Under the pieces are notes generated by a model. The model ran no database searches. It saw only the letters and a list, made by a program, of their open reading frames with translations, and was not told the origin of the DNA. The translations under genes were made by a program, and so were the position numbers. Positions 5,864-20,974 of a stretch of DNA of 56,806 bases are shown in pieces (position 1 is the stretch's first letter; every line of letters begins with the position of its first letter). Origin of the DNA: Anaerolineales bacterium (GTDB taxonomy: Bacteria > Chloroflexota > Anaerolineae > CG2-30-64-16); assembly GCA_017882045.1 (NCBI GenBank), contig JADGQF010000003.1, positions 1 to 56,806 of the forward strand, in the 5' to 3' direction.

Positions 5864-5996
5864 CGCTTCGGCAACTGCGCTTGGCCGGCGGCCAATCCGC
5901 GCCGAGTGGATAGTGGATAACTGAAAGCTAGTCCGGCTGTTGCTTAAGTGGCAGAGAATCGGCGGCACAACGCTGCCGTGTTGCGCGAGAAATCAG

Positions 5997-7757
5997 ATGG
6001 CTTTTCAATCTATCACCCAAGTGAACGGAACCCTCAATGCCGTCCGACCCGGCACACCCCGCACGACGGCCCAGGTCTGGTTCGATGACGGGCGCATATA
6101 CGAAGCCCCCGTCGGCACGCCCCTGGAAGCCTATATCAAGGCTGCCGAGCCGGCCTGGCCTTTGCCTGTGATGGCCGCATTGATCGATGACGAACTGCGC
6201 GAGCTGACCTATCATATCGAACGGGATGTGGAGGTGACGCCGCTCTCGATGGCCCATTGGGACGGCAGCCGCGTATACCGCCGCTCGCTGACCTTCCTGC
6301 TGCTGGTCGCCGTCCACGAGCTTTTCCCCGAAGCGCAGATCAACATCGACCACTCAGTGACTTTCGGCGGCTTCTTCTGTGAGGTGACGGGACGCCAGAA
6401 TTTCACGCCGGACGAGCTGGCCCAGATCGAAGCGCGGATGCGCCAGATCGTCGAGGCGGATGCGCCCATCAGCAAGGAGCGGGTGCCGCTGCGTGAGGCG
6501 ATCGAGATCTTCCGACGCCGCGGCGAGGACGACAAGGTGCGGCTGCTGAGCTACCGGCGCAAGGACTATCTTACGCTGTACCGGTTGCGCGGTCTGAGCG
6601 ACTATTTCCACGGCTACATGGTTCCGTCGGCCGGCTATCTGCGTTATTTCGCCCTCACCTACTACGCGCCCGGCTTCATCTTGCGCTTCCCGATTCGCAA
6701 CACGGCCGAGTTACAGCCGGTGGTCGAGTATCCCAAGCTGATTCATGTATTCCGCGAGTACGGCCAGACTCTGCGCCTGCTCGGCATTGAGGACGTCGGC
6801 TCGCTGGACCAGTCCATCGATGCCGGGCGCGCCAATGAGATCATCCTGGTAGCCGAGGCGTTGCACGAGCAGCGCATCGCGCAGATTGCCACCCAGATCG
6901 CAGGCCGGCGCGGCCAGGTCAAGCTGGTGTTGATGGCGGGTCCGTCCTCCTCGGGCAAAACTACCTTTGCCAAGCGATTGGCCGTGCAGTTGCTGGCAAA
7001 CGGCATGCGCCCGATTGCGATTGGCCTGGACGATTACTTCGTGGATCGGCAGTTCACGCCGCGCGACGAGCAAGGCAACTACAACTTCGAGATCCTGGAA
7101 GCGTTGGACCTCAAGCTGTTCAACCAGCAACTGTTACAGCTGATGGCCGGCGAGCAGGTCACACTGCCGCATTTCAACTTCGTCACCGGCAAGCGCGAAC
7201 CGGGCGTCACCATCCAGCTAGGGCCCGAGCATGTCCTGCTGGTGGAGGGGATCCATGGCCTGAATCCCGGCCTGGTGCCCGCCATCCCATCCGACCGTAT
7301 CTTCCGCATCTTCATCTCCGCCCTGACCCAGCTCAACATCGACCGCCACAACCGCGTGCCGACTACCGATACCCGGTTGATCCGGCGGATCGTGCGCGAT
7401 GCGCGCACGCGCGGCTATTCCGCCGCCGACACCATCTCCCGCTGGCAGAGCGTGCGGCGCGGCGAGCGTGAGTTCATCTTCCCTTATCAAGAAAATGCCG
7501 ACGTCATGTTCAATTCGGCCCTGGTCTACGAGTTGTCCGCCCTCAAGCCGCTGGTCGAGCCGCTTCTATTGCAGATCGAGCCCGGCAAGCCCGGCCATGT
7601 GGAAGCCAAGCGCCTGCTCGCGTTCCTGCAATGGTTCGCGCCCATGCCGACTGACCCGATCCCGGACAACTCGATTCTGCGCGAGTTTGTCGGGGGGTCC
7701 AACCTGGAGTCGTTGGAGCTGCAGATATTCGGGGCTACCCCAAAGAAGGGGGCCTGA
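5997..7757 (+). CDS. Nucleoside (uridine-like) kinase with TGS/ThrRS-like N-terminal domains
   Basis: Cytoplasmic P-loop kinase of the uridine kinase/phosphoribulokinase class, expected to phosphorylate a nucleoside. Residues ~25-65 form a TGS-like domain (AQVWFDDGRIYEAPVGTPLE). Residues ~75-200 resemble the second, editing-type domain of threonyl-tRNA synthetase, but the His pair of that domain is missing (RRSLTFLLL in place of HSxxH). The kinase domain carries the P-loop AGPSSSGKTTFAKRLA (about residue 315) and LDDYFVDR, then LLVEGIHGLNP. The ATG at 5997 gives 586 residues; a TTG at 5940 in the same frame is an alternative, and neither has a clear Shine-Dalgarno. The exact substrate is not known. 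Confidence 0.85.
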   Translation: MAFQSITQVNGTLNAVRPGTPRTTAQVWFDDGRIYEAPVGTPLEAYIKAAEPAWPLPVMAALIDDELRELTYHIERDVEVTPLSMAHWDGSRVYRRSLTFLLLVAVHELFPEAQINIDHSVTFGGFFCEVTGRQNFTPDELAQIEARMRQIVEADAPISKERVPLREAIEIFRRRGEDDKVRLLSYRRKDYLTLYRLRGLSDYFHGYMVPSAGYLRYFALTYYAPGFILRFPIRNTAELQPVVEYPKLIHVFREYGQTLRLLGIEDVGSLDQSIDAGRANEIILVAEALHEQRIAQIATQIAGRRGQVKLVLMAGPSSSGKTTFAKRLAVQLLANGMRPIAIGLDDYFVDRQFTPRDEQGNYNFEILEALDLKLFNQQLLQLMAGEQVTLPHFNFVTGKREPGVTIQLGPEHVLLVEGIHGLNPGLVPAIPSDRIFRIFISALTQLNIDRHNRVPTTDTRLIRRIVRDARTRGYSAADTISRWQSVRRGEREFIFPYQENADVMFNSALVYELSALKPLVEPLLLQIEPGKPGHVEAKRLLAFLQWFAPMPTDPIPDNSILREFVGGSNLESLELQIFGATPKKGA

Positions 7758-7775
7758 CAAAAAAGGCAGGCCCCC
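7748..7775 (-). terminator. Perfect 9-bp inverted repeat between convergent genes
   Basis: GGGGGCCTG, 10-nt loop, CAGGCCCCC. On the minus strand it is followed by TTCTTTG, so it best fits a terminator of the NrfD operon, which ends at 7828; on the plus strand it overlaps the kinase stop codon and lacks a U-tract. Confidence 0.55.
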
Positions 7776-7827
7776 TGAGTAGCAAGCGCTGCTCAGCGGG
7801 CCTGATCCTTCGGCTGCTCGCTTACGA

Positions 7828-9009
7828 TCAGTGATGCCCGTTCGGCTTCTCGAATACCGCCAGCAAGCGTGCACCCAGATACCAGGCCAGGGCCGCCGCG
7901 GCAACCACGCCGGCGGTAGTCATCCACTCGACAACATGCGGCACGTACGTCGCACCAGGGGGCGCCGTCTGAGCGAAGAGGGTGGCGTCGAAGCGGCTAA
8001 TCAACGTGCCCAGCACCACCAGGATCGCCCCGGCCCATTGGCCCTTCTCTGTCCGGCGCACGGAAGGCGCCAGAAAGATCGCCAGAGGCGCCAGCACGCC
8101 CACGATCAACTCGATCCACATCAAGAGGCTCATCCGGTCGAATGCCAGCAGCAGTGGCGCTTTGCCGGAGAGGATGATATCGCCCAGCTTCAGCACCAGG
8201 TAGAATACCAGCACCCCTGCCACCAGGCTGCCCAGACCGCGTGCGACCCGGGGCTGCGCCTGCTGGCCGGTGAAGCGCGTTGCCAGCTTGTAGGCGATGA
8301 TCGCCACGCTCAGGCCGGTGCTGACCGAAGAAGTAAAGAACAGCAACGGCAAGAGAGGCGTGTACCAGAGCGCATTGAGCCGGTAGGGCATGTTGAGGTA
8401 CAACGTGCCCAAGGTAGATTGATGCAGCGAGGACAGCGTCACGGCAACGATGGCCAGCGGGACAATGATCGCGTGCACGATGCGCACTGGCCCAGGCCTG
8501 TTCAACCGCTCGAAGACCTGTGGGCTGACCTCAATCAGCAGCACGGTGGTGTAGAGCAACACACACCAACTGATCTCAAACAGCGGCGAGTGCAGGTTCC
8601 AGTAAATCAGGAAGTGGTAAAAACGATCTGGGCGGCCCAGGTCGAGGATCAGCAGAGCGAGCACCGCCGTGTAGCCAAGCAGGCCGGTGAGCACGGCCGG
8701 TCGTAGCGCCGGGCGGAACTGCTCCTGGCGGAACACGTAAACCAGCCCGGCCATCGTGAAGCCGGCCCCCGAAATGGCAATCAAGCTGAAGTCGAAGCCA
8801 ATCCAGATGCCCCAGGGGATTCCGTCGGTGAGGTTGGTCGCGGCGCCCAGCCCGCTGAACAGCCGCCATATCCCGGCCAGCACGCCGATGACGGTGAGGT
8901 AGGCCAGGATCTGCACACCGGGATTGAGATAGCTGGGCAAGGCTTCCCTCAGGGCGGAGCGTGCTCCGTTCCAGCGGAGGCGCTTCTGATCCGCCGTCGA
9001 GGTGACCAT
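7828..9009 (-). CDS. NrfD/HybB-type quinone-interacting membrane protein
   Basis: Integral membrane subunit of 393 residues with ten predicted helices, of the NrfD/PsrC/HybB superfamily, which exchanges electrons between the quinone pool and an attached FeS subunit and may move protons. Helix-rich stretches include IPWGIWIGFDFSLIAISG and WCVLLYTTVLLIEV; LDLGRPDRFYHFLIYWNLHSP is a typical loop of the family. Start ATG at 9009 overlaps the ferredoxin stop (TGATG) with GGAGGAG five bases upstream; the GTG codon just before is too close to it. It is the last gene of the octaheme operon and makes a membrane anchor for the FeS protein. Confidence 0.9.
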   Translation of the reverse strand: MVTSTADQKRLRWNGARSALREALPSYLNPGVQILAYLTVIGVLAGIWRLFSGLGAATNLTDGIPWGIWIGFDFSLIAISGAGFTMAGLVYVFRQEQFRPALRPAVLTGLLGYTAVLALLILDLGRPDRFYHFLIYWNLHSPLFEISWCVLLYTTVLLIEVSPQVFERLNRPGPVRIVHAIIVPLAIVAVTLSSLHQSTLGTLYLNMPYRLNALWYTPLLPLLFFTSSVSTGLSVAIIAYKLATRFTGQQAQPRVARGLGSLVAGVLVFYLVLKLGDIILSGKAPLLLAFDRMSLLMWIELIVGVLAPLAIFLAPSVRRTEKGQWAGAILVVLGTLISRFDATLFAQTAPPGATYVPHVVEWMTTAGVVAAAALAWYLGARLLAVFEKPNGHH

Positions 9010-9911
9010 CACTTCTCCTCCCGCACGTCGATCTCGACATGCCCGTGGTCACTGCGCCAGCGCAACACCGAGTAGATGCCGGTGGCGACAGCGGCGACGC
9101 TGACGGCGATGGTGGGAGTGCGTTTCATCATGCTCTCGGCGTAGTGCGGCGCCGGGTCAGTTCCCAACTTGGGGAAGCCGAGTTGATCGAACGGCACGTC
9201 GGAGATATACAGGCAGCTGGTGCCACCTACTTCGGTCTCGCCGTAGATGAGGTCGACGTACACTTCAGGATGCGCAGCGATACGGCCGTGCGCTTCCTGC
9301 AACAGATCGCCACGCAGGCCATACTTCAACGCTCCCGACGGGCAATTGTCGGCACAAGCCGGACCCTGTCCCTGGGCAAGACGGCCCAGGCAGAACTGGC
9401 ACTTACGCACGAGGCCCAGTGCGCTGTCCCACTGGAATTTGGGCACGTTGAACGGGCAGGCGTACTGGCAGTAACGACAGCCGATGCACTTCCGCGCGTC
9501 CACCGCCACCACCCCATCCGCGGTTTGGTGCAGCGCGCCGACCGTGCACGCCGAGACGCACGCCGGGTACAGGCACTGCATGCACTGCCGCTTTACGAAG
9601 CGAGTCTTGCCTCCGGGCAGATCGTAACGCTGAACGTAGGTGTAAGTATCCGCGCTCAGGGTGCTCAGCTCCTCCTGGCTCGGGTGCAGATCGTTCGCTG
9701 CGATGCAGGACCGCTGGCAGTTGCCGCAGCCAACGCAGCGAGTGAGATCGATCAAGATGCCCGGCACTTTGGCCGGATCGATGCTCTCGCCAGACGCGGT
9801 GGCCGGTACGAACTGGCAGCCGACCAGAGCGGCGCCGCCGGCAGTCGCAGCCGAAAGCTTCAGAAACTGGCGCCGAGAAAAGCTCGCCGTCCCCTTCGTC
9901 CGCGCGCTCAT
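9009..9911 (-). CDS. Tat-exported ferredoxin subunit with four 4Fe-4S clusters
   Basis: 300-residue electron-transfer protein of the HybA/NrfC/PsrB type. It begins with a twin-arginine signal (SRRQFLKLSAATAG at about 11-25) followed by a Cys in VGCQF, so it may even be a lipoprotein. Four cysteine clusters follow: CVGCGNCQRSC, CMQCLYPACVSAC, CIGCRYCQYAC and CQFCLGRLAQGQGPACADNC. A C-terminal hydrophobic helix (TIAVSVAAVATGIYSVLRW) would anchor it outside the membrane. The ATG at 9911 overlaps the cytochrome stop as ATGA and has GAGGG upstream. It should pass electrons between the octaheme cytochrome and the NrfD protein. The Tat genes at the far end of the window could export it. Confidence 0.92.
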   Translation of the reverse strand: MSARTKGTASFSRRQFLKLSAATAGGAALVGCQFVPATASGESIDPAKVPGILIDLTRCVGCGNCQRSCIAANDLHPSQEELSTLSADTYTYVQRYDLPGGKTRFVKRQCMQCLYPACVSACTVGALHQTADGVVAVDARKCIGCRYCQYACPFNVPKFQWDSALGLVRKCQFCLGRLAQGQGPACADNCPSGALKYGLRGDLLQEAHGRIAAHPEVYVDLIYGETEVGGTSCLYISDVPFDQLGFPKLGTDPAPHYAESMMKRTPTIAVSVAAVATGIYSVLRWRSDHGHVEIDVREEK

Positions 9912-10900
9912 GACTTCCCTCTCTTCTGCCACAGTGTCATGCCGATGATACCCAGCACCAGGCCCGCAAACCCTCCGAATCCGAAAGCGAACCCGCTGGC
10001 TGCGACGCCCACGTTCCGCACCGCGGCTAGCCGCTGCTGCAAGGCAGTCAATTGCTGCTGCAGCACAGGTACTTCCTTAGCCTGCTCCAGCATTTGCGTG
10101 CTATTGGCGGTCCCTTGCCCGGCCGCCAGGTTGGCAGCCGCCACTTTATTGCTGGTATGGATGGTTGCCTGGTGGCAACCGGCGCAGACGTCGGACGAGA
10201 CTTTGAAGCTGTGGCTGGGCGCCATCACCTGCATCATGCCCGGAGCGTTGTTCACCGATTCCTTTGACATATGGCAACTGACGCAATCCACGCCGCTAAT
10301 GCCGTGGGTTGCGTGTGCAAGCTCGGTCTGCTTGTCAGAATGGCATGCTGCGCACAGCTTCTGCACGCTGCCCGTGCGCAAGCCCTGAGTGTGCGCCTGA
10401 TGGCAGTCGAAGCATTGGATGTTCTGGCCGCCGTGCTGGCTGGTTTGCCATTCGTTGAACGTTTGTTGGTGACACACGTGGCAGGTCTCGGAAGCCATCG
10501 GCAACTGCATCGTCGCCGCCTTCGGATGGCCCTCTTTGTATGGGCCATGGCAGGCCTCGCAGGTCACACCCTCCGACAAGAACTTGCCGCTGCCGGGGTC
10601 AAAACCGGTGGTGTGGCACGTCAGACAGGCGGCCTGATTGCCGGCTTTGGCCAATTGATCCTTGAACGCCGGGTTCAGAGTTGCCTTAGCATGTGGCGCT
10701 GCCTGCCAGTCCGCGTATTCTTTGGGATGGCAAGACTGGCATACGGGCGTCTGTTGCTGAAACAGGACGTTTGTCAGCAGGACGCGCGGTAAGGCTCCCG
10801 GCGCCGCATTGCTGGTTCCGGTCAAAAGAAGCATCAGACCGGCAATCAACAGTGTCGGCGCCACCACCCACCAACCGCCCAAGACGAACCGCTTTTTCAT
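9908..10900 (-). CDS. Octaheme c-type cytochrome, membrane anchored
   Basis: 330-residue exported protein with exactly eight CxxCH heme sites in order: CQSCH, CLTCH, CEACH, CHVCH, CFDCH, CAACH, CVSCH and CAGCH. Many extra His residues can serve as distal ligands. The N-terminus is a signal anchor (VVAPTLLIAGLMLLLTG). After the hemes comes a short coiled coil (VPVLQQQLTALQQRLAAVR) and a second, C-terminal transmembrane helix ending in WQKRGKS. The start has AAGGAGG 9 bases upstream. The arrangement resembles DmsE/NrfB-like periplasmic cytochromes, but the heme spacing and C-terminal anchor do not let me name a family. No catalytic oxidoreductase gene is nearby, so this may be the electron acceptor or donor for an unlinked enzyme or for extracellular transfer. 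Confidence 0.9.
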   Translation of the reverse strand: MKKRFVLGGWWVVAPTLLIAGLMLLLTGTSNAAPGALPRVLLTNVLFQQQTPVCQSCHPKEYADWQAAPHAKATLNPAFKDQLAKAGNQAACLTCHTTGFDPGSGKFLSEGVTCEACHGPYKEGHPKAATMQLPMASETCHVCHQQTFNEWQTSQHGGQNIQCFDCHQAHTQGLRTGSVQKLCAACHSDKQTELAHATHGISGVDCVSCHMSKESVNNAPGMMQVMAPSHSFKVSSDVCAGCHQATIHTSNKVAAANLAAGQGTANSTQMLEQAKEVPVLQQQLTALQQRLAAVRNVGVAASGFAFGFGGFAGLVLGIIGMTLWQKRGKS

Positions 10901-10920
10901 GATTGCATAGCCTCCTTTGG

Positions 10921-11388
10921 CTATATGTTGGGGTAGTTCTTGAAGACTTCACAGCCAAAGCAGGATTCGGGCATCTGGTGTTCCACCTTCGTCCGGGCCT
11001 GCCAACAGGGCACGTCAGGATGAGTGAAGGCCGGGCATTGCGCTACTTTCTCCGGCGAGCAGCCCTTCACGTCCCAGCAATGCCTGGTATCGGTCAAAGC
11101 CATTGCAGGCTGCGGCCCACGGATCAGACCTGGGTCGAACGGCAGCTGAGGTTCAGGCACGTCCACACTGGACCGGCGAGCCGGTCGGGCCGGGGCCGCA
11201 GGCGCAGGAAGCGCCTGTGGCCCCGGTTGCGCCGCCTGTCGTGCCGCCTGCTCGGCGCGAGCCTCGGCCTCCCAACGCCGGTCCAGCCACCTCAGGAGGT
11301 AGCCCAGGCCGGCCAGCACGGCCAGCGGCACGCCGATGCGCAGTACGAACATGCCTATTACGATCAGAAAATCCATTGAGCTAGCCAT
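10921..11388 (-). CDS. Membrane-anchored Cys-rich protein, two-CW-like domain
   Basis: 155 residues. One N-terminal membrane helix (FLIVIGMFVLRIGVPLAVLAG), an Ala/Pro/Gln linker of about 55 residues, and a C-terminal domain with six cysteines in the order CWDVKGC, QCPAF, PCWQARTK and CFGCEVF. Two Cys-Trp pairs and the CPA and CxxC motifs recall the two-CW domain seen in some signalling and redox proteins; metal or FeS binding is a fair inference, not shown. Start ATG at 11388 has GGAG 7 bases upstream. It sits 20 bases ahead of the octaheme gene and is clearly part of that operon. Confidence 0.8.
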   Translation of the reverse strand: MASSMDFLIVIGMFVLRIGVPLAVLAGLGYLLRWLDRRWEAEARAEQAARQAAQPGPQALPAPAAPARPARRSSVDVPEPQLPFDPGLIRGPQPAMALTDTRHCWDVKGCSPEKVAQCPAFTHPDVPCWQARTKVEHQMPESCFGCEVFKNYPNI

Positions 11389-11443
11389 GGGATATCTCCA
11401 CTAACCAGCAGGTGGGGCAACAACCCGGCTTACGCAAGCCGGA

Positions 11444-11557
11444 TCAGGCGTTACTACGCCGCAAATCCCACGCCTTGACGCGATCGGCCAGCCAGATGGT
11501 CACCACCACGGGGACCAGGACCCGAAGCAACACCAGAGCGAACATCCAGTACTCCAT
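11444..11557 (-). CDS. 37-residue single-helix membrane peptide
   Basis: Small protein starting at the ATG at 11557, with GGAGG five bases upstream; an in-frame ATG at 11569 is less well placed. It is almost entirely one transmembrane helix (MFALVLLRVLVPVVVTIWLA) followed by a basic tail (DRVKAWDLRRSNA). It is the first gene of the octaheme operon, 55 bases before the two-CW protein, whose N-terminal helix has a similar shape (xxFVLRIGVPL versus LVLLRVLVPV). Small helices like this often stabilise respiratory complexes. Function otherwise unknown. Confidence 0.65.
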   Translation of the reverse strand: MEYWMFALVLLRVLVPVVVTIWLADRVKAWDLRRSNA

Positions 11558-11603
11558 TGTGTCCTCCATGCGTTTGCTGTGCTTTGTCAGTCCCGGCTGT
11601 CCT

Positions 11604-11615
11604 GGCGCTAGCGCC
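11604..11615. repeat. 12-bp perfect palindrome in the octaheme operon leader
   Basis: GGCGCTAGCGCC, about 47 bases upstream of the 37-residue peptide start. It could be a dimeric regulator site or a short hairpin. The rest of 11558-11782 shows nothing else I can name. Confidence 0.4.
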
Positions 11616-11782
11616 TGCCGCAAGCACTGACTATCTGATTCATCCAGGTGAAGCTTAGCACGGAGCGACGGGCGAATCCATTGGGTGGAATCACCATCTT
11701 TCAATGGGGCGGATTACCCATGGGGGCAGAGGGAAGAGATAGGAGAGGGCGAAAAGCGATTAAACGAAGACCCTTTCTACTT

Positions 11783-12451
11783 TCATCCTTCATCCTTCAG
11801 GTCAATGAGTCCCTTCTCAATTGCGTAATGCACCAACTCGACCCGGCTATGAAGGTTGAGCTTGGCCATGATGTTCTCGCGGTGCCGGTTGACGGTCTTG
11901 ATACTGATCACCAGCTCATTGGCGATCTGCTGATTGCTCAGTCCCTGGGCAATGCGCACAAGCACCTCGCGCTCCCTGTCGGTCAGGGCATCGAAGGGGC
12001 GCCCGGCGCTACCTTCGTGTTCGCTCCGCTGGAGATAATCGCTGACCAGCAGGCGCGCCAACGAGGGGAACAAGAACATACCCCCATTCTTGACAGCCCG
12101 GATGGCCGAGATGAGGTCGTCCGGAGCCGCGCGCTTCGGCACATAGCCGGAAGCGCCGGCAGCCAGCATCTCGAAGAAGTACTGGTCGTCCTCGTGCATG
12201 GTCAGTGCGAGCACGGCCACTTCGGGGCAAAGCTCCTTGATGCGGCGCGTTGCTTCGATGCCGTTCATGTCGGGCATCGAGATGTCCATTAACACGACAT
12301 CCGGCGCCAGGTCGCGCGCCAGGCGCAGCGCCTGGGCGCCGTCTCCGGCCTCGCCGGCAATCTCGAGCTCCGGATCGGCGCTGAGCAGCATGCGCAATCC
12401 CGCCCGCACGACTGCATGATCGTCAACAATCAAAATACGTATCGGACTCAT
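11783..12451 (-). CDS. NarL/FixJ-type response regulator
   Basis: 222-residue transcription factor. The receiver domain has the acidic pair Asp10/Asp11, the phosphoacceptor Asp56 (VVLMDISMPDMNG), the Thr in LALTMHED and the Lys in YVPKRAA. The C-terminal LuxR helix-turn-helix reads LTDREREVLVRIAQGLSN followed by SIKTVNRHRENIMAKL. It is 27 bases after the kinase gene and its partner. The octaheme operon starts 225 bases downstream on the same strand and is the obvious candidate target. Confidence 0.95.
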   Translation of the reverse strand: MSPIRILIVDDHAVVRAGLRMLLSADPELEIAGEAGDGAQALRLARDLAPDVVLMDISMPDMNGIEATRRIKELCPEVAVLALTMHEDDQYFFEMLAAGASGYVPKRAAPDDLISAIRAVKNGGMFLFPSLARLLVSDYLQRSEHEGSAGRPFDALTDREREVLVRIAQGLSNQQIANELVISIKTVNRHRENIMAKLNLHSRVELVHYAIEKGLIDLKDEG

Positions 12452-12478
12452 TCTCGCTCCGTTTCAGTCAGATCGGCC

Positions 12479-14611
12479 CTACTTGAGCGGTAATTCCACG
12501 CGCACGCGGGCGCCACCCCCACGCTGCGACTCGATCGAGCACTTGCCCGCCACCAGCGCCACCCGCTCACGGATGCCGACCAGCCCCCAGCCGTGGCCAT
12601 CGGTCTGGCCGGCACGCGGCAGGGTCGAATCAAAGCCCACGCCGTTGTCAACCACCTCCAGCCGCACGAGGTCCGCCTCCTGGCACAGTTGCACGCTCAC
12701 CTGTGTCGCGCTCGCGTGTTTGGCCACATTCGACAGCGCCTCCTGGGCTACGCGGAAGAGCACCGTCTCGTACTGGGCGGGCAGACGGCGGGGCGGGCGC
12801 TCCGCGGTCAGGGTGACGGTCAGCTCAGGATGGCGTGCGTTGTAGCGCTGCACATACCAGCGCAAGGCGGGTACCAGCCCAAGGTCATCGAGCTGCGACG
12901 GACGCAGATCGGACATCACGTTGCGCAATTCGGTGATGGATTGGTCCGCCAGGTCGCGCAGCTCGCGCACCAGCCGGGCCGCGCGCTCCACATCTGACCC
13001 CAGCGAGGTCTCGACCGCGGCCAGGCCCATTGCCAGCGCCGTTAGTTTTTGGCCCGTCTCGTCGTGCAGCTCGCGCGCGATCCGTTGACGCTCATTCTCC
13101 TGCGCGTTCACGAGCTGGCGCACCAATTCTTTGAGCTGCGTCTCACGCAGCCGTAAGGTCTGGTAAAGCCCGGCGTTCTCCACGGAGGCCGCCAATTGCT
13201 GCCCAAACGCGATCAGCAGCCTCAGCTCGGCCGGGCCAAATGGCTCGTCCTCCTGTAAGGAAGTCAGCACCACGCCCCCGAGGAGCTGCTCCTTGGCGTG
13301 CAAAGGCACTGCCAGGGTGCGGTATCGGCGAAACTCGGGTGTTGCGGCGGCGATAGCCACGCCGGTGGCCGCCACCCCGCCGTCGTAGACGGCGGCTCCG
13401 TCGTTCGCGGGTGGGCGATCGTCCCTGGCAACATCAGCCGTCAAGATACGCACTTGATCGTCGAGCCCGGCGCCCGCCGGGTTATCGGCTTTGAACGCCA
13501 GCGCGGTTGTCCGGGTCAGAGGGGGCAGGATGGCAGGCTCGGCCATCTCCGGTCTTTGGTAACGGGCCGCGAGCTCAAGGCCCCCGTCCGGACGTTTCAG
13601 GAAAATGGCGCTGCAGCCAGCCGATTCGAAGCTGTGCACCATCTGGTAGAGCGCATCTTGCAGAAGGCGCTGCAGATCGACCGTCGAGGTCAGAATACTT
13701 GACATAGCGACCAGGGCGGACAGCTCGCGTGCTGACGTGCGGAGTTGTTGGTTGAGGGCCTCGGTCTCCTCCGCGCGCCGTCGCTGGGCCTCCAGCGCGG
13801 CCGCCTGCGCTTCGAGGCGCGCCTGGTTGGCCTGCGCCAGGCGCAAGCGGCTTTCAAGCTCGAAGGCACGCAGTGCTCGGCCAAGAGTGACCGCAATCGC
13901 GACCGCTGCAACGCTGCGCAGGAGCTGGACGGGGAAGCCGAAGACCCGTAAGAACAAGGTCGTATTCAGGACCTGGGAGGGGTAGAGCAAGCTGGCGCGG
14001 CTGAACAACTGGCTGAGGGCGCCGTAGACGAAGAAGGCCAGGGCAGCCCACAGCAGGTCCTGCCCATAACCGGACATGCCGCGCGCATGGAAGTCGCGCC
14101 GCTCGCGGAGCAAGGCCCAGCATGCCAGCAGCGCACTGGGGATGCCAAGGCTGTAGCGGGCCAGTACTTCGGCTGCCGCCAACCAGTCGGTGGGTGAGGG
14201 CCGCCAGCGCCAACCGATGAGCACGATCCCGGCCAGGTAAACGCCAGTTACCCCCGCCACACGCCAGGCGGTCAGGTTGGGGCGGCGGTCCGCGTCGGGG
14301 AGCAATCGGATGCCAAAAGCCATCAAGCTGAGAAAGGAAACGGCCAGGAGCGTGATGCGCACGACCTCTTCGGGTGTCCCAGCCGCGCGTCCACCTTCGT
14401 GCGCGGCGAAAATCTGGAACATCTCGTACCACTCGTGCGTCCCGTGCAGAAGTCCGAAAGCCGCCAGGGCCGGCAACCCGCGCGCAAAACGAAACTCGGA
14501 GGCGCGCGCCGACTCGAGGATGACAACCAGCCCCATGGCGAAGAAGGCCAGCCCGTATAAGAAATAGACGAAGACGATATTCTGCGTGAGGAACGTGGGT
14601 ACGGCGTTCAC
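12479..14611 (-). CDS. Seven-helix sensor histidine kinase with GAF domain (NarX/DesK-type)
   Basis: 710 residues. The first ~250 form seven hydrophobic helices, with HGTHEWYEMF in the second, so the input is membrane or extracytoplasmic. A coiled coil (about 255-300) leads to a GAF domain (about 305-480). The HisKA_3 dimerisation box is RIARELHDETGQKL with the phosphorylated His, and the ATPase domain has VVDNGVGFD and GWGLVGIRERV. The start is GTG at 14611 with AGGGGA upstream. It forms a pair with the response regulator downstream. Ligand unknown; location next to a respiratory module suggests redox or electron-acceptor sensing. Confidence 0.93.
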   Translation of the reverse strand: MNAVPTFLTQNIVFVYFLYGLAFFAMGLVVILESARASEFRFARGLPALAAFGLLHGTHEWYEMFQIFAAHEGGRAAGTPEEVVRITLLAVSFLSLMAFGIRLLPDADRRPNLTAWRVAGVTGVYLAGIVLIGWRWRPSPTDWLAAAEVLARYSLGIPSALLACWALLRERRDFHARGMSGYGQDLLWAALAFFVYGALSQLFSRASLLYPSQVLNTTLFLRVFGFPVQLLRSVAAVAIAVTLGRALRAFELESRLRLAQANQARLEAQAAALEAQRRRAEETEALNQQLRTSARELSALVAMSSILTSTVDLQRLLQDALYQMVHSFESAGCSAIFLKRPDGGLELAARYQRPEMAEPAILPPLTRTTALAFKADNPAGAGLDDQVRILTADVARDDRPPANDGAAVYDGGVAATGVAIAAATPEFRRYRTLAVPLHAKEQLLGGVVLTSLQEDEPFGPAELRLLIAFGQQLAASVENAGLYQTLRLRETQLKELVRQLVNAQENERQRIARELHDETGQKLTALAMGLAAVETSLGSDVERAARLVRELRDLADQSITELRNVMSDLRPSQLDDLGLVPALRWYVQRYNARHPELTVTLTAERPPRRLPAQYETVLFRVAQEALSNVAKHASATQVSVQLCQEADLVRLEVVDNGVGFDSTLPRAGQTDGHGWGLVGIRERVALVAGKCSIESQRGGGARVRVELPLK

Positions 14612-14705: not shown

Positions 14706-15320
14706 CTAGCGCACGGTCAGCTCGATCTGTCCCTCCGACGTGTGCACCTGCTCCACGTACCAGCTAGAGGCGTACTGGCGCAACGCCTGATTGACAATCG
14801 TCGGCATCAACGCGCCGACCATCCCGCCGGGCGAAACAGATTCCGCTTCAACCTGCAGCGCGCCATCCTGGGCCACCAGATGTCCCACGTAGACCAGGTT
14901 GTTGGCCTGGATGATCCCATAACTGATGCGGTCCGCCGTGATGCGCACTTTGCCGCCGGTAAAATGGAGCTGCAGATTCGTCGCGTCAACGCCGCTGCTG
15001 GCCAACACTCCAGATCTGACGGCACTTTGCAGGTCTGCATCGGTGATCACGACCGATTGCGGACCGCTCGGTGCGACGGCTTGCTCGGTCGCCGGCGGGG
15101 CCGCCACGACGGTGGGCGCTTCAGTGACGACGGGGAGGAGCGGCGTCAGGGTAGGCGCTGGGACCTCAGTCGGGAGAGCAACTTCTCCCGCAGTGGCAAC
15201 CGGCGGTGGAGTCCAGGCCGCGGTCGGCGTGGGAAGGACGTTCAGAGCGCTGCAAGCCAGTGCGGCCAGACCCAGTGCGGCCAGAACCACAATCAAGGCC
15301 AAAAACCGATGACGCCTCAC
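14706..15320 (-). CDS. Putative lipoprotein with Pro/Thr-rich linker
   Basis: 204 residues. A signal peptide (FLALIVVLAALGLA) ends in the lipobox LAALAC, predicting a lipid-anchored surface protein. A Pro/Thr/Val-rich linker (about 30-85) follows. The remaining domain (ITDADLQSAVRSG through GQIELTV) looks like a small beta-rich lipid-binding or DUF2993-like fold: it contains a VRITADRISYG strand and ends in strands; this is a tentative impression. It lies 94 bases ahead of the sensor kinase gene on the same strand and could be a sensor accessory. I do not recognise the family firmly. Confidence 0.6.
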   Translation of the reverse strand: MRRHRFLALIVVLAALGLAALACSALNVLPTPTAAWTPPPVATAGEVALPTEVPAPTLTPLLPVVTEAPTVVAAPPATEQAVAPSGPQSVVITDADLQSAVRSGVLASSGVDATNLQLHFTGGKVRITADRISYGIIQANNLVYVGHLVAQDGALQVEAESVSPGGMVGALMPTIVNQALRQYASSWYVEQVHTSEGQIELTVR

Positions 15321-16823: not shown

Positions 16824-17822
16824 CTACGCCCCCAGCTTGTCGAGCAGGGCCTGGGCAAACTGCGCCGGATCGGCGAAGATGTTCCAATCCGCCACCTGCG
16901 CGATCGGCGCGGTGGGATCAGCCTGCACCGCAACGATCGTTCCGGCGCCCTGAATCGCCATGAAATGGGTCGTTTCGCCGCTGATGCCGAGGGCCAGGTA
17001 GAGCTTGGGAGCGATGCTCTGGCCTGTTATGTCGACCAGTTGCTCCTCGTCGATCCAGCCGGCATCCAGAGCGCTCACATCACCGGCCAGCGCGCCGCCC
17101 AGCCTTGCGGCAAGGCGTCTCGCCACCTCGAACCCGGCGTCCTTGAGAGCGCGGCCGGCGGCCACGACCAGCGGCGCAGTGGCGATCCGGGCCGGGAAGG
17201 CCGGCAGATCGGCTGCCAGGTATGCGGGCGCGGCGCCCCAGGTCAGCCCGGATTCCTCGACTTCGCCGCTGCGCCACGGCTCGCTGAAGGCGGCCGGGAG
17301 CGCCAGGGTGTCGACCACGACAACGGCCGGTTGCTCGAGGATGATGACGTTCTGCCGTGCCGCGTTATCCATGACCGGCACATGGGCAATGACACGCTGG
17401 GTGCTGGGATCGAGGGCCAAATCGGCCGCGCAGCCTACGACGCCGCCGCCCAGGCGCTGGCCCAACCCGGGGCCGAGGCTGCGGCCGAGGTATGTGTACG
17501 GGAGAAGGACGGCCTGGGGCGCGCGCGCGCTGAAGAAGTCAACCAGGTCAGCGAGAGCCGGCACTCCGCCGGCCAGCACCACCCGATCGGCGCCCGCGCG
17601 GATGGCCGTCTGCCCGGCATCCTGGCCGGCCCCGGCCGCGAGCAGCAGGTAGACGTAACCGCCCAGCGAGTCGGCGAGCACACGCGCCTTGCCGACCAGG
17701 CGCAGGATGCCGTCGTCAAGCGCGCCCTCGGGACTGACCACCCACACGCCGCCACTGCCGCCTTCCGGTCCTTGCGAACCGCCGCCCATCAAAGCTTCAA
17801 GGTATGAGAGGTCCATGCCCAT
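16824..17822 (-). CDS. etfA: Electron transfer flavoprotein alpha subunit
   Basis: 332 residues. ETF receives electrons from acyl-CoA dehydrogenases and passes them to a quinone reductase. The C-terminal FAD domain is clear: DITGQSIAPKLYLALGISG, then THFMAIQGAGTIVAV, DPTAPIAQVADWNIFAD. The His of the family GAIQH motif is kept (GETTH). The Arg normally found four residues before DAG in the SR..VDAG motif is replaced (DVSALDAGW), which is uncommon for this FAD contact. It lies 13 bases after etfB in the same operon and ends before the terminator. Start ATG has GGAG upstream. Confidence 0.95.
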   Translation of the reverse strand: MGMDLSYLEALMGGGSQGPEGGSGGVWVVSPEGALDDGILRLVGKARVLADSLGGYVYLLLAAGAGQDAGQTAIRAGADRVVLAGGVPALADLVDFFSARAPQAVLLPYTYLGRSLGPGLGQRLGGGVVGCAADLALDPSTQRVIAHVPVMDNAARQNVIILEQPAVVVVDTLALPAAFSEPWRSGEVEESGLTWGAAPAYLAADLPAFPARIATAPLVVAAGRALKDAGFEVARRLAARLGGALAGDVSALDAGWIDEEQLVDITGQSIAPKLYLALGISGETTHFMAIQGAGTIVAVQADPTAPIAQVADWNIFADPAQFAQALLDKLGA

Positions 17823-17835
17823 AAAACGCTCCTTC

Positions 17836-18618
17836 TCAGATCAGCCGCTGCTCGCGCAGCACCTCGAGGACGGCTCCGGCGGCATCCTCAACCCCGCCAC
17901 CGATCACCTGGCCGCGCGTGCGCTCCGGTCCGAGGACCAGGCCTCCGGCCTCGGTATCGCCGATCAGCAGGTCACCTTCAAGGCCCAGGTCGGCGGGAGA
18001 GCACGTTTCGACCAGGCCCGGCTGCCAGGCATTGGCGATGCGCGCCGCATGGGCGTAGCGTGGCCGTTCCGGGCCGGGACGGACTGACACCACCGCCGGC
18101 CCGCTCAGGCTGACCAGCCGGCCCTCGCCAGCATACGACACCAGCGCTTCCAGCCCGTCCGCGGCCGGGGCCAATTGCAGCGCATCCAGCACGACGGGCC
18201 AGCCCAACGCAGCCGCCAGCCGTCCGGCCAGGCCGCCCGTGCCATTGACGGCGCCGATGTCACCGGTCAGCACCAGGTCGACGGGGGCCAGGCGCTCGAC
18301 GGCGGCCGCGAGCGCGCGAGTGACCGTCCGGCCTGAGGCGGCGGCCAGTTCGCGCCCGCTGACCAGCATTGCGTGGTCAGCGCCCATGGCTATCGCCTCG
18401 TGGGCCGTGTCATCGGCCTGCGCATCGCCCACGGTCACGGCGATGACCTCGCCGCCCAGGGCGTCGCCGTCGCGCAGCCTCAACCCGGCTTCCAGCGCGT
18501 AGCGGTCCGCCGGATTGGTGATCCGGGTGGCACCGCGCAGATCAAATTCCTCCCGGCTGCGCGAAATTCGCACCGTGGCCGGATCGTATACCTGTTTGAC
18601 GCAAACTACGATTCGCAT
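17836..18618 (-). CDS. etfB: Electron transfer flavoprotein beta subunit
   Basis: 260 residues, begins IVVCVKQVYDP as in EtfB, with NPADRYALEAGLRL and DLVLTGDIGAVNGTGG, and the C-terminal part RPRYAHAARI. It binds AMP and pairs with EtfA. Order acd-acd-etfB-etfA with gaps of 13 bases points to one mRNA. The usual length is 250-265. Confidence 0.95.
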   Translation of the reverse strand: MRIVVCVKQVYDPATVRISRSREEFDLRGATRITNPADRYALEAGLRLRDGDALGGEVIAVTVGDAQADDTAHEAIAMGADHAMLVSGRELAAASGRTVTRALAAAVERLAPVDLVLTGDIGAVNGTGGLAGRLAAALGWPVVLDALQLAPAADGLEALVSYAGEGRLVSLSGPAVVSVRPGPERPRYAHAARIANAWQPGLVETCSPADLGLEGDLLIGDTEAGGLVLGPERTRGQVIGGGVEDAAGAVLEVLREQRLI

Positions 18619-18631
18619 GGCTCACTCCTTG

Positions 18632-19798
18632 TCACGGCCGCACGCGCACGCCGTAAGGCTTCAGCACTTCCTCGGCGATCACGTAATGCTGGACCTCATT
18701 GGTGCCCTCGAAGATCTCGCCGATGCGGGCGTCGCGCCACATGCGTTCGAGCGGGAAGTCCCGGCTATAGCCCAAGGCCCCATGGACCTGCAACGCCCGG
18801 TCGATGGCTCGCGACGCTGCGGTCGAGCCGAACAGCTTGCAGGCCGCCGCCTCGCGCGAGTAAGCCTGTCCCGTGTCCACCATCCAGGCCGTGCGGTAGA
18901 CCAGCGAGTAGAGCAAATCCAGGTCAGCCGCGGTCTCGGCGATCATCCATTGGATGCTCTGCTTCTCACCGATCGGCTTGCCGAACTGCTGGCGCCCGGC
19001 CGCGTACTGCGCCATGTATTCCAGCGCCGTGCGTATGCCTCCCAACGAGGCCGCGCCCAGGCCGAGACGCCCGCTATCCAGCGTCTGCATAAAGGTGACG
19101 AAGCCGGCCCCCACCTGGCCAATCACGTTCTCCGTCGGGACACAGACCTCGTCAAAAACGATCTCGGAGGTCGCACTGCCACGGATACCCATCTTGTGTT
19201 CGATCTTGCCCACCGACAGCCCGGGGGTCCCTTTTTCGACAATGAAAGCCGTGGCTCCCCCGCGCGCCCCCAGGGCGGGATCGGTCATCGCCATGACGCT
19301 GAAGGTGCTGGCGATAGGCCCGTTGGTGATGTAGATCTTCGAGCCGGTGATGATGTAGTTGTGCCCGTCGCGGATGGCACTGGTCCGGATGGCCGCCGCA
19401 TCCGAGCCGGCGCCCGGCTCCGTCAGGCAGAAGGAAGCGATCTTGCGCCCGGTGCACAGGTCGGGCATGTAACGCATCTTCTGCGCCTCGGTCCCGCCCA
19501 TGTAGATGGCCAGCGTGCCGATGCCGACGTGCGCGCCGATGAGGGTTGCCGTGCTGGTACAGACACGGCCGATCTCCTCCATCAGGATACAATAGCCGGT
19601 CTCGCCCAGGCCGGCGCCGCCGTACTTCTGCGGGAAAGGCACCCCCAGCAAGCCGGCATCGCCGAGCTTACGAATCGTCTCCGTGGCCAGGCTCTCGTCC
19701 TTGTCCACCTTCTGTGCGAGCGGCTTGATCTCCTGCTCCGCAAACTCATGCACCGTCTGGCGGAACAATTGATGCTCTTTGGAAAAAGTAAAATCCAT
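18632..19798 (-). CDS. Acyl-CoA dehydrogenase
   Basis: 388 residues, full family length, FAD-dependent alpha,beta-dehydrogenation of acyl-CoA. FAD/substrate motifs FCLTEPGAGSDAAAIRTSA and YITNGPIASTFSVMAMT. The catalytic Glu is at about 364 in EIFEGTNEVQ. Typical GYSRDFPLERMWRDARIGEI precedes it. Electrons should go to the EtfAB encoded next. Paralogue of the gene at 19808. Chain-length preference cannot be read from sequence. Confidence 0.95.
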   Translation of the reverse strand: MDFTFSKEHQLFRQTVHEFAEQEIKPLAQKVDKDESLATETIRKLGDAGLLGVPFPQKYGGAGLGETGYCILMEEIGRVCTSTATLIGAHVGIGTLAIYMGGTEAQKMRYMPDLCTGRKIASFCLTEPGAGSDAAAIRTSAIRDGHNYIITGSKIYITNGPIASTFSVMAMTDPALGARGGATAFIVEKGTPGLSVGKIEHKMGIRGSATSEIVFDEVCVPTENVIGQVGAGFVTFMQTLDSGRLGLGAASLGGIRTALEYMAQYAAGRQQFGKPIGEKQSIQWMIAETAADLDLLYSLVYRTAWMVDTGQAYSREAAACKLFGSTAASRAIDRALQVHGALGYSRDFPLERMWRDARIGEIFEGTNEVQHYVIAEEVLKPYGVRVRP

Positions 19799-19807
19799 AA
19801 GATCCCC

Positions 19808-20974
19808 CTACGGTTTGACCTTGATGCCGTAGCCGGCAAGCATGTCCTCGGCGATGATGACCTGCTGGATCTGGGTCGTGCCCTCGACCAGCTCCAGCGC
19901 ACGCGCGTCGCGATAGTAGCGTTCGACGGGGTAGTCTTGCATGAAGCCGATGCCGCCGTGGATCTGCACGGCCTGATCGGTCACGTCGGCGGCCATGCGG
20001 CTGCAGAACAGCTTGGCCATTGCCGCCTCGCGCGTGACCGGTTTGCCCTGGTCGACCAGCCAGGCCGCCCGGCGCATCAGGCATTCGGCCGCGGCGAGCT
20101 GGGTTGCCGCGTCGGCCAGGTAAGCCTGGATGGCCTGTTTTTGGGCGATCGGCGCCCCGAACTGGACGCGCTCGCTGGCATACCTGGCCGCCACTTCCAG
20201 CGCGTGCTCGGCGCCGCCCACGGCGATGGCCGAGACTCCGATGCGGCCGAAGTCGAGGGTTTCCAGGGCGATCCTGTAGCCCTGTCCCGGCGCGCCCAGC
20301 AGGTTCTCCGCCGGCACCCGGCAATCTTCCAGGTAAAGGCGGGTGATATTGGCCCCGCGCAGCCCCAGCGTCTTCTGGCGCCCGCCGACGGTCAGGCCGG
20401 GCGTCTCCGCCGGCACCGCGAAAGCCGTCATCCCGCGCGCGCCGGCAGGCGGGTCGGTCAGCGCGAACACGATGTAGACCCCTGCCAGGCCACCGTTGCT
20501 GACCCAGGTCTTGGCCCCGCTGATGGTCCAGCCGCCGTCCACCTGAGCCGCGACGGTGCGCAGCCGGGTTGGATCGCTGCCGGCCCCTGCCTCGGTGAGC
20601 GCGAAAGCCCCCAGCCGCTCGCCGGTCACCATCTCCGGCACCAACGCTTCCTTGAGCGCCGGGCTGCCCTGCCTGAGAATGGTGCGCAAGGCCAGGCTGT
20701 TGTGGACGTGGATGGTCAGGGCAGTGCTGGCGCACTCGCCGGCCAACGCCTGCAACAGCAAGGTGTAGCTGATGGTATCCAGCCCGGCGCCCCCGTAAGG
20801 TTCTTCGGGAGCTACGGCGCCCAGGAAGCCCTGTGCCGCAGCTCGTTTGAGAAGCTTGGGCGGCAGGGCCTCTTGCTTGTCCGCCTGGTCCGCAACTTTC
20901 GCCACTTCCTTGGCCGCAAAGTCGCGGAACATGTCGCGGAACATCTGCTGTTCGGGAGTGAGAGTAAAGTCCAT
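19808..20974 (-). CDS. Acyl-CoA dehydrogenase (second paralogue)
   Basis: 388 residues, same length as the next gene but quite different in sequence. It has FALTEAGAGSDPTRLRTVA, WVSNGGLAGVYIVFALT, GGIGFMQDYPVERYYRDARA and the catalytic Glu at about 364 (ELVEGTTQIQ). Ends 9 bases before the other dehydrogenase. Two paralogues in one operon probably cover different chain lengths or branched substrates. Confidence 0.95.
   Translation of the reverse strand: MDFTLTPEQQMFRDMFRDFAAKEVAKVADQADKQEALPPKLLKRAAAQGFLGAVAPEEPYGGAGLDTISYTLLLQALAGECASTALTIHVHNSLALRTILRQGSPALKEALVPEMVTGERLGAFALTEAGAGSDPTRLRTVAAQVDGGWTISGAKTWVSNGGLAGVYIVFALTDPPAGARGMTAFAVPAETPGLTVGGRQKTLGLRGANITRLYLEDCRVPAENLLGAPGQGYRIALETLDFGRIGVSAIAVGGAEHALEVAARYASERVQFGAPIAQKQAIQAYLADAATQLAAAECLMRRAAWLVDQGKPVTREAAMAKLFCSRMAADVTDQAVQIHGGIGFMQDYPVERYYRDARALELVEGTTQIQQVIIAEDMLAGYGIKVKP

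Follow-up and report, generated by a model that had tools for sequence, protein, structure and literature searches.

What is the function of a respiratory operon that joins a multiheme cytochrome to an iron-sulfur (FeS) protein and an NrfD-type membrane subunit, with no catalytic subunit among its genes? This question is raised by positions 7828-11557 of the contig JADGQF010000003.1, a stretch of 56,806 nucleotides (the window) from an Anaerolineales bacterium of the phylum Chloroflexota, which is widespread in sediments, aquifers and sludge and is believed to have no typical outer membrane. The window is one of the 462 contigs of a 4.85-Mb genome, which is 99% complete with 6% contamination. 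Five minus-strand open reading frames are present in this region and encode a 37-amino-acid membrane peptide (sTM), a membrane protein with a six-cysteine domain (CW), an octaheme c-type cytochrome, an FeS protein and an NrfD protein. Their arrangement suggests, with moderate confidence, a membrane-bound quinone:multiheme-cytochrome oxidoreductase with two small accessory proteins, whose end partner is probably another heme chain. An earlier note on this DNA had described the five genes and their features, and all reading frames could be confirmed at their coordinates. One start is slightly corrected: the FeS protein more likely begins at ATG 9911, where start and octaheme stop codon overlap by 4 bp (ATGA), than at GTG 9932.

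Conservation of the five-gene set

A class-wide profile search covered 396 genomes, and a same-family set comprised 10 genomes including the source genome; all co-occurrence figures are raw genome counts, in which shared ancestry is ignored. The octaheme profile matches 96 and the CW profile 97 of the 396 genomes; both are found in 72 (odds ratio 33), and in 57 of these 72 they lie within 6 kb of each other. Octaheme identity within the family is 43-57%, and six of the nine other same-family genomes (G001, G002, G003, G006, G007 and G009) hold the octaheme, FeS and NrfD genes together. CW adjoins the three genes in five of these six; the G001 contig begins at the octaheme. The identical order kinase-regulator-sTM-CW-octaheme-FeS-NrfD is found in locus L031, and G004 (L032) carries kinase, regulator, sTM and CW at the equivalent place without the three electron-transfer genes. 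Since gene order and sequence recur in relatives and CW and the octaheme co-occur, the five-gene set exceeds chance. The absence or displacement of the small genes in close relatives, which would have spoken against the set, was mostly not observed: CW is present in seven of the ten same-family genomes, including the source, and sTM lies upstream of CW in five of these seven loci.

The FeS/NrfD pair

The NrfD protein has ten hydrophobic segments, and the FeS protein combines a Tat signal with four Cys4 sets and a C-terminal helix. Matches to PF03916, Fer4_11 and TAT_signal identify adjoining genes for a membrane protein of the NrfD family and a Tat-exported ferredoxin with four clusters. The proposal of a quinone-linked pair joined to an anchored multiheme cytochrome is supported. 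The NrfD protein scores 231 bits on the HybB-type model PRK10881 and 213 bits on HmcC (cut-off 550), and the FeS protein scores 247.5 bits on HmcB (cut-off 420) and 214 bits on HybA; all four scores lie under the equivalog cut-offs. The Nrf models score low (NrfD 17.6 of 347.6 bits, NrfC 91 of 378 bits), so that the HybB and HmcC scores of the NrfD gene product are far above its score on the NrfD model itself. No catalytic molybdenum subunit was seen in the window neighborhood, and the operon indeed contains no catalytic subunit, as had been claimed. Other NrfD contigs of the genome carry reading frames which, as read from the sequence, resemble molybdopterin-type enzymes or alternative complex III.

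The octaheme cytochrome and its anchor

The octaheme possesses an N-terminal signal helix and eight CXXCH motifs. Its AlphaFold model has a C-terminal helix of 64 residues (266-329), which includes a membrane segment at 305-323. In an alignment of 38 octahemes, this anchor, a C-terminal coiled coil with a membrane segment, is present in 25 of 25 proteins adjoining FeS/NrfD genes, and 11 octahemes located beside CW without FeS/NrfD lack it and end 2-11 residues past heme 8. Two further octahemes are anchored: the L110 contig ends before any FeS gene, while its near relative L118 has FeS/NrfD, and the L120 protein has no assigned partner. Because all FeS/NrfD-linked octahemes have the anchor and the 11 CW-only proteins lack it, the anchor appears to mark membership in a quinone complex, and electrons may be relayed from anchored to soluble octahemes.

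All eight heme motifs are plain CXXCH, with neither CXXCK nor a long MccA-type motif, and the heme domain is short (about 230 amino acids). Candidates for the second ligands of the eight hemes are seven invariant or near-invariant histidines outside the CXXCH motifs and Met131; heme 2 is variable and missing in some homologs. The octaheme matched neither the octaheme tetrathionate-reductase model nor the pentaheme NrfB models, TIGR04315 was absent from its matches, and no catalytic octaheme model matched. It also failed to match the HmcA model, although phmmer gave a partial similarity to nine-heme cytochrome c (E 4e-5); the similarity to MccA is weak (E 6e-4). Electron transfer rather than enzymatic activity is the better reading of these features. 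Octaheme homologs also occur within 16-17-heme proteins preceding FeS/NrfD genes (L100:728-2761 and L102:1-2052). Outside the Chloroflexota, a Candidatus Omnitrophota locus (L084) on a long tree branch holds octaheme, FeS and NrfD genes adjoined by three large multihemes.

The small proteins sTM and CW

CW has one membrane helix and six cysteines in the pattern C-W-x4-C-x7-C-x9-C-W-x13-C-x2-C, which are invariant in alignment A5; its structure model predicts a helix at 4-53 and has low confidence in the Cys domain. Nothing convincing was found for CW in Pfam, NCBIfam or PDB, and the open-access literature yielded no paper on a 'two-CW domain'. The two small proteins, which the earlier note called novel partners, are not unrelated: sTM and the N-terminal helix of CW have in common an R-x3-P motif within the membrane segment and, after it, a stretch rich in Lys/Arg. 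The motif is present in 12 of 12 sTM-type sequences, and Arg17 and Pro21 are invariant in the 14 CW proteins of alignment A5. As judged from sequence, sTM and CW form one membrane-helix family, which is undescribed. sTM homologs with ribosome sites are located upstream of CW in L031, L032, L033, L036, L038, L066, L169, L170, L176 and L177. According to the positive-inside rule, both proteins are predicted to have an N-out/C-in orientation with a cytoplasmic C-terminus; therefore, the six-Cys domain of CW is probably cytoplasmic and opposite the hemes.

Elsewhere, the six-Cys pattern occurs in fusion with MerR DNA-binding domains, in L019, L020, L022 and, as judged by eye, in L023, and in L158 it extends the C-terminus of a GAF-PAS histidine kinase. 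Several CW-family proteins adjoining octahemes are missing the Cys domain. The domain is thus possibly an undescribed cytoplasmic sensor domain. Because it is fused to MerR and kinase proteins and is sometimes absent, CW would be a sensory, regulatory or assembly factor; the sensory or regulatory role is favored, and assembly is its main rival. The alternative of CW as the main electron carrier is disfavored by the members without a Cys domain. That a membrane microprotein can act on a kinase has a precedent in MgrB, a 47-amino-acid membrane protein that inhibits the kinase PhoQ (PMC8404706).

Gene neighborhoods and the multiheme island

Among the loci compared, the module recurs in four layouts (ARRANGEMENTS). 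The window-type layout is kinase-regulator-sTM-CW-octaheme-FeS-NrfD. In the Anaerolineales-type layout (e.g., L096), an eight-heme protein, the octaheme, FeS, NrfD, nonaheme, cytochrome b, nonaheme, cytochrome b, kinase and regulator follow one another. The Caldilineales-type layout (L094, L107, L114-L116) consists of kinase-regulator-CW-octaheme facing NrfD-FeS-seven-heme cytochrome, and in the family-f28-type layout (L066; L175 was counted here without a separate sTM test) kinase-regulator-sTM-CW-octaheme-FeS-NrfD face an NrfH-like seven-heme protein, cytochrome b, nonaheme and decaheme. An island of multiheme and cytochrome b genes hence adjoins the module in several families. Octaheme and nonaheme occur together in 75 of the 96 octaheme genomes, and the nonaheme is present in nine of the ten same-family genomes, including the source. 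In the source genome, a fusion of cytochrome b with an octaheme and a nonaheme are encoded at the end of contig C159, which breaks off about 240 bases ahead of the nonaheme start; their best island-gene matches are 46-54% identical. A truncated multiheme on C12 is a 34% homolog of a nine-heme lipoprotein adjoining the module in L038.

NarL-type regulators adjoin the module or CW in many relatives, and kinase homologs adjoin the module in other families. Two additional heme loci were found in the source genome: contig C299 (L077:2218-3831) encodes a 537-amino-acid protein that contains 21 CXXCH motifs and in which heme segments are repeated many times, and contig C295 (L185:8989-10883) encodes an NrfH-like four-heme protein followed by NrfA, a pair for ammonia-forming nitrite reduction that does not belong to the module.

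Proposed mechanism and alternative explanations

In the proposed mechanism, NrfD would exchange electrons with (mena)quinone, and the Tat-exported FeS protein would carry them on the outer face of the membrane. The octaheme, held at the membrane by the coiled coil and helix of its C-terminus, would then pass electrons on to further multiheme cytochromes or receive electrons from them. The most likely task of sTM and CW would be to tune or assemble either the complex or its two-component regulator, outside the main electron flow. The end partner is probably another heme chain, plausibly an extracellular one, because relatives encode cytochrome b, nonaheme and decaheme next door and homologs are present on another contig of the source genome. 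Anaerolineales are known to possess large multihemes, although porin-cytochrome complexes were not found in them (PMC7399161), and Ardenticatena performs extracellular electron transfer (PMC5808234); both reports make the extracellular reading plausible. The earlier note had proposed electron transfer from quinol to an extracellular acceptor, or the reverse. A likely role in multiheme electron transfer is supported by the islands in relatives and by the C159 homologs, whereas the extracellular acceptor, the partner and the direction are still what we infer. Several observations weigh against the proposed mechanism. The nonaheme is absent from 21 of the 96 octaheme genomes, no multiheme/cytochrome b island adjoins the operon in the source genome, and no decaheme homolog was found there in a search that lacked a positive control. 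The octaheme model is of moderate confidence (pLDDT 78, pTM 0.57) with weak PDB fold matches to MtrA, HAO-like and MccA structures, and one heme of the octaheme may be open, since heme 2 is variable and the protein is c554-like.

Three other explanations concern the electron path. If the octaheme, FeS and NrfD proteins acted as NrfB, NrfC and NrfD, they could supply an NrfA encoded elsewhere under NarX/NarL-type control; the genome does encode NrfA (PF02335, E 3e-151), and the kinase and regulator score on NarL/NarX-type models. This is highly improbable: NrfA has a donor of its own in the NrfH-like four-heme quinol dehydrogenase whose gene directly precedes it, which weakens a nitrite role, the octaheme matches no NrfB model and the NrfD gene fits HybB/HmcC far better than NrfD models. 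NrfA was rejected as the partner, since the NrfH-like gene precedes it. It is also improbable that the octaheme is itself catalytic, c554/HAO-like or MccA-like, and the complex a complete reductase. Its c554-type domain, the weak HAO-like and MccA fold matches and heme 2, variable as if special, point in this direction, but the plain heme motifs, the conserved candidate second histidine for nearly every heme and the short heme domain argue against it. Finally, electrons could flow from outside, from reduced minerals, partner cells or periplasmic donors, into the quinone pool. Quinone reduction is described for HybB and Nhc-type relatives (e.g., Nhc, PMC8076601), and reading frames resembling alternative complex III/oxidase and bd-oxidase, identified by sequence reading only, could drain quinol. 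However, nothing in the sequence fixes the direction, and neighboring fatty-acid oxidation genes suggest a heterotroph rich in reductant; the reverse flow is rather unlikely.

For the small proteins, the alternative is that sTM and CW are structural subunits and that the Cys domain of CW is a stabilizing metal site or an electron carrier instead of a sensor, for which there is an appreciable though lesser chance. The small genes directly precede the octaheme; among 44 CW loci, of which about five Cys-less entries are weak matches, an octaheme lies within 1.5 kb in 33, and a two-component pair lies within 1.5 kb in 23; the invariant in-helix arginine suggests packing against a membrane partner. 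On the other hand, CW persists without octaheme/FeS/NrfD nearby (G004/L032, L037, L042), and its Cys domain is also carried by transcription factors and a kinase, and several members beside octahemes lack it. A broader and tentative proposal is that the module could be an unrecognized Anaerolineae quinone gate for multiheme, possibly extracellular, electron transfer. It would be controlled by a dedicated two-component pair and the R-x3-P microprotein family, one member of which would place a cytoplasmic six-Cys domain, a sensor of redox state or metal, at the membrane and thereby let conditions in the cytoplasm adjust electron export.

The quinone:octaheme module is found in about a quarter of the sampled class genomes and is statistically tied to nonaheme genes. 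It offers a testable entry point to how Chloroflexota cells might couple quinones to external partners, and sTM and CW represent a family of small proteins that is conserved and undescribed and bears a clear signature.

Genes of the operon and its surroundings

Table 1. Genes of the module and of the upstream two-component pair, in window positions.
Feature	Position	Strand	Basis
NrfD-type integral membrane subunit, 394 aa, HybB/HmcC-like, presumed quinone site	7828..9012	-	PF03916 E 7e-23
Tat-exported 4x[4Fe-4S] protein, HybA/HmcB-like, C-terminal helix	9009..9932	-	Fer4, TAT_signal matches
Octaheme c-type cytochrome, signal helix, C-terminal coiled coil and membrane anchor	9908..10900	-	eight CXXCH; PF13435 E 2e-15
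CW protein: N-terminal membrane helix with R-x3-P, linker, six-Cys domain	10921..11388	-	alignment A5
sTM, 37-aa membrane peptide, CW-type helix (R-x3-P)	11444..11557	-	GGAGG ribosome site upstream
NarL/LuxR-type response regulator, upstream of operon	11783..12451	-	PF00072 and PF00196
Membrane histidine kinase: multi-helix N-terminus, GAF, HisKA_3, HATPase	12479..14611	-	PF07730, PF02518

A promoter and terminator scan of positions 7700-12500 gave matches no more numerous than in shuffled sequence. The kinase gene is adjoined by a lipoprotein-like gene (14706-15320, minus strand), which has no Pfam match and is kept in L031 and L032. Genes for ETF alpha/beta and two acyl-CoA dehydrogenases (16824-20974) share the strand of the kinase gene and lie a few genes upstream of it. 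On the plus strand, positions 5940-7757 encode a uridine-kinase-type protein with a threonyl-tRNA-synthetase-like N-terminal part, which is also located near the CW operon in several same-family genomes.

Comparison with known systems

The earlier note held that the C-terminal anchor of the octaheme and the Cys protein match no known assembly. The architecture is not new, since two sets of cytochrome, FeS and NrfD genes without a catalytic subunit precede it: Geobacter Cbc4 (CbcSTU), a menaquinol:ferricytochrome c oxidoreductase tied to extracellular electron transfer (PMC11434368), and NhcABCD, a TpIc3:quinone oxidoreductase (PMC8076601). The likeness to Cbc4 lies in gene content, and the module differs from it in the anchored octaheme, sTM/CW, the two-component pair and the Chloroflexota host. 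Desulfovibrio NhcABCD and Hmc also combine a multiheme cytochrome with HmcB-like FeS and HmcC-like NrfD proteins, but the module scores under the HmcB/HmcC cut-offs, its octaheme is c554/MtrA-like and its operon has no HmcE/HmcF-like genes. The closest named models are HybA/HybB of E. coli hydrogenase-2, which share the Tat signal, the C-terminal helix and the ten helices; in the module, the octaheme cytochrome replaces the hydrogenase. The octaheme sulfite reductase MccACD likewise joins an octaheme to FeS and NrfD proteins (PMC8076601), whereas the octaheme of the module has only plain CXXCH motifs and is weakly similar to MccA. With no special active-site heme motif and no octaheme-enzyme model match, it probably falls outside the MccA/HAO/ONR/OTR enzymes, and an operon without NrfA, with NrfC/NrfD scores far below cut-off, is distinct from NrfABCD. 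The C159 protein joins a cytochrome b domain and eight hemes as in CbcL-type quinol oxidases; unlike these, it has cytochrome b first, in the opposite domain order, and it is unlinked to the window operon. No description of this module in Chloroflexota was found in open-access papers; the novelty lies in the form that the set takes in Chloroflexota, with an anchored octaheme, its own gene neighborhood and the sTM/CW family.

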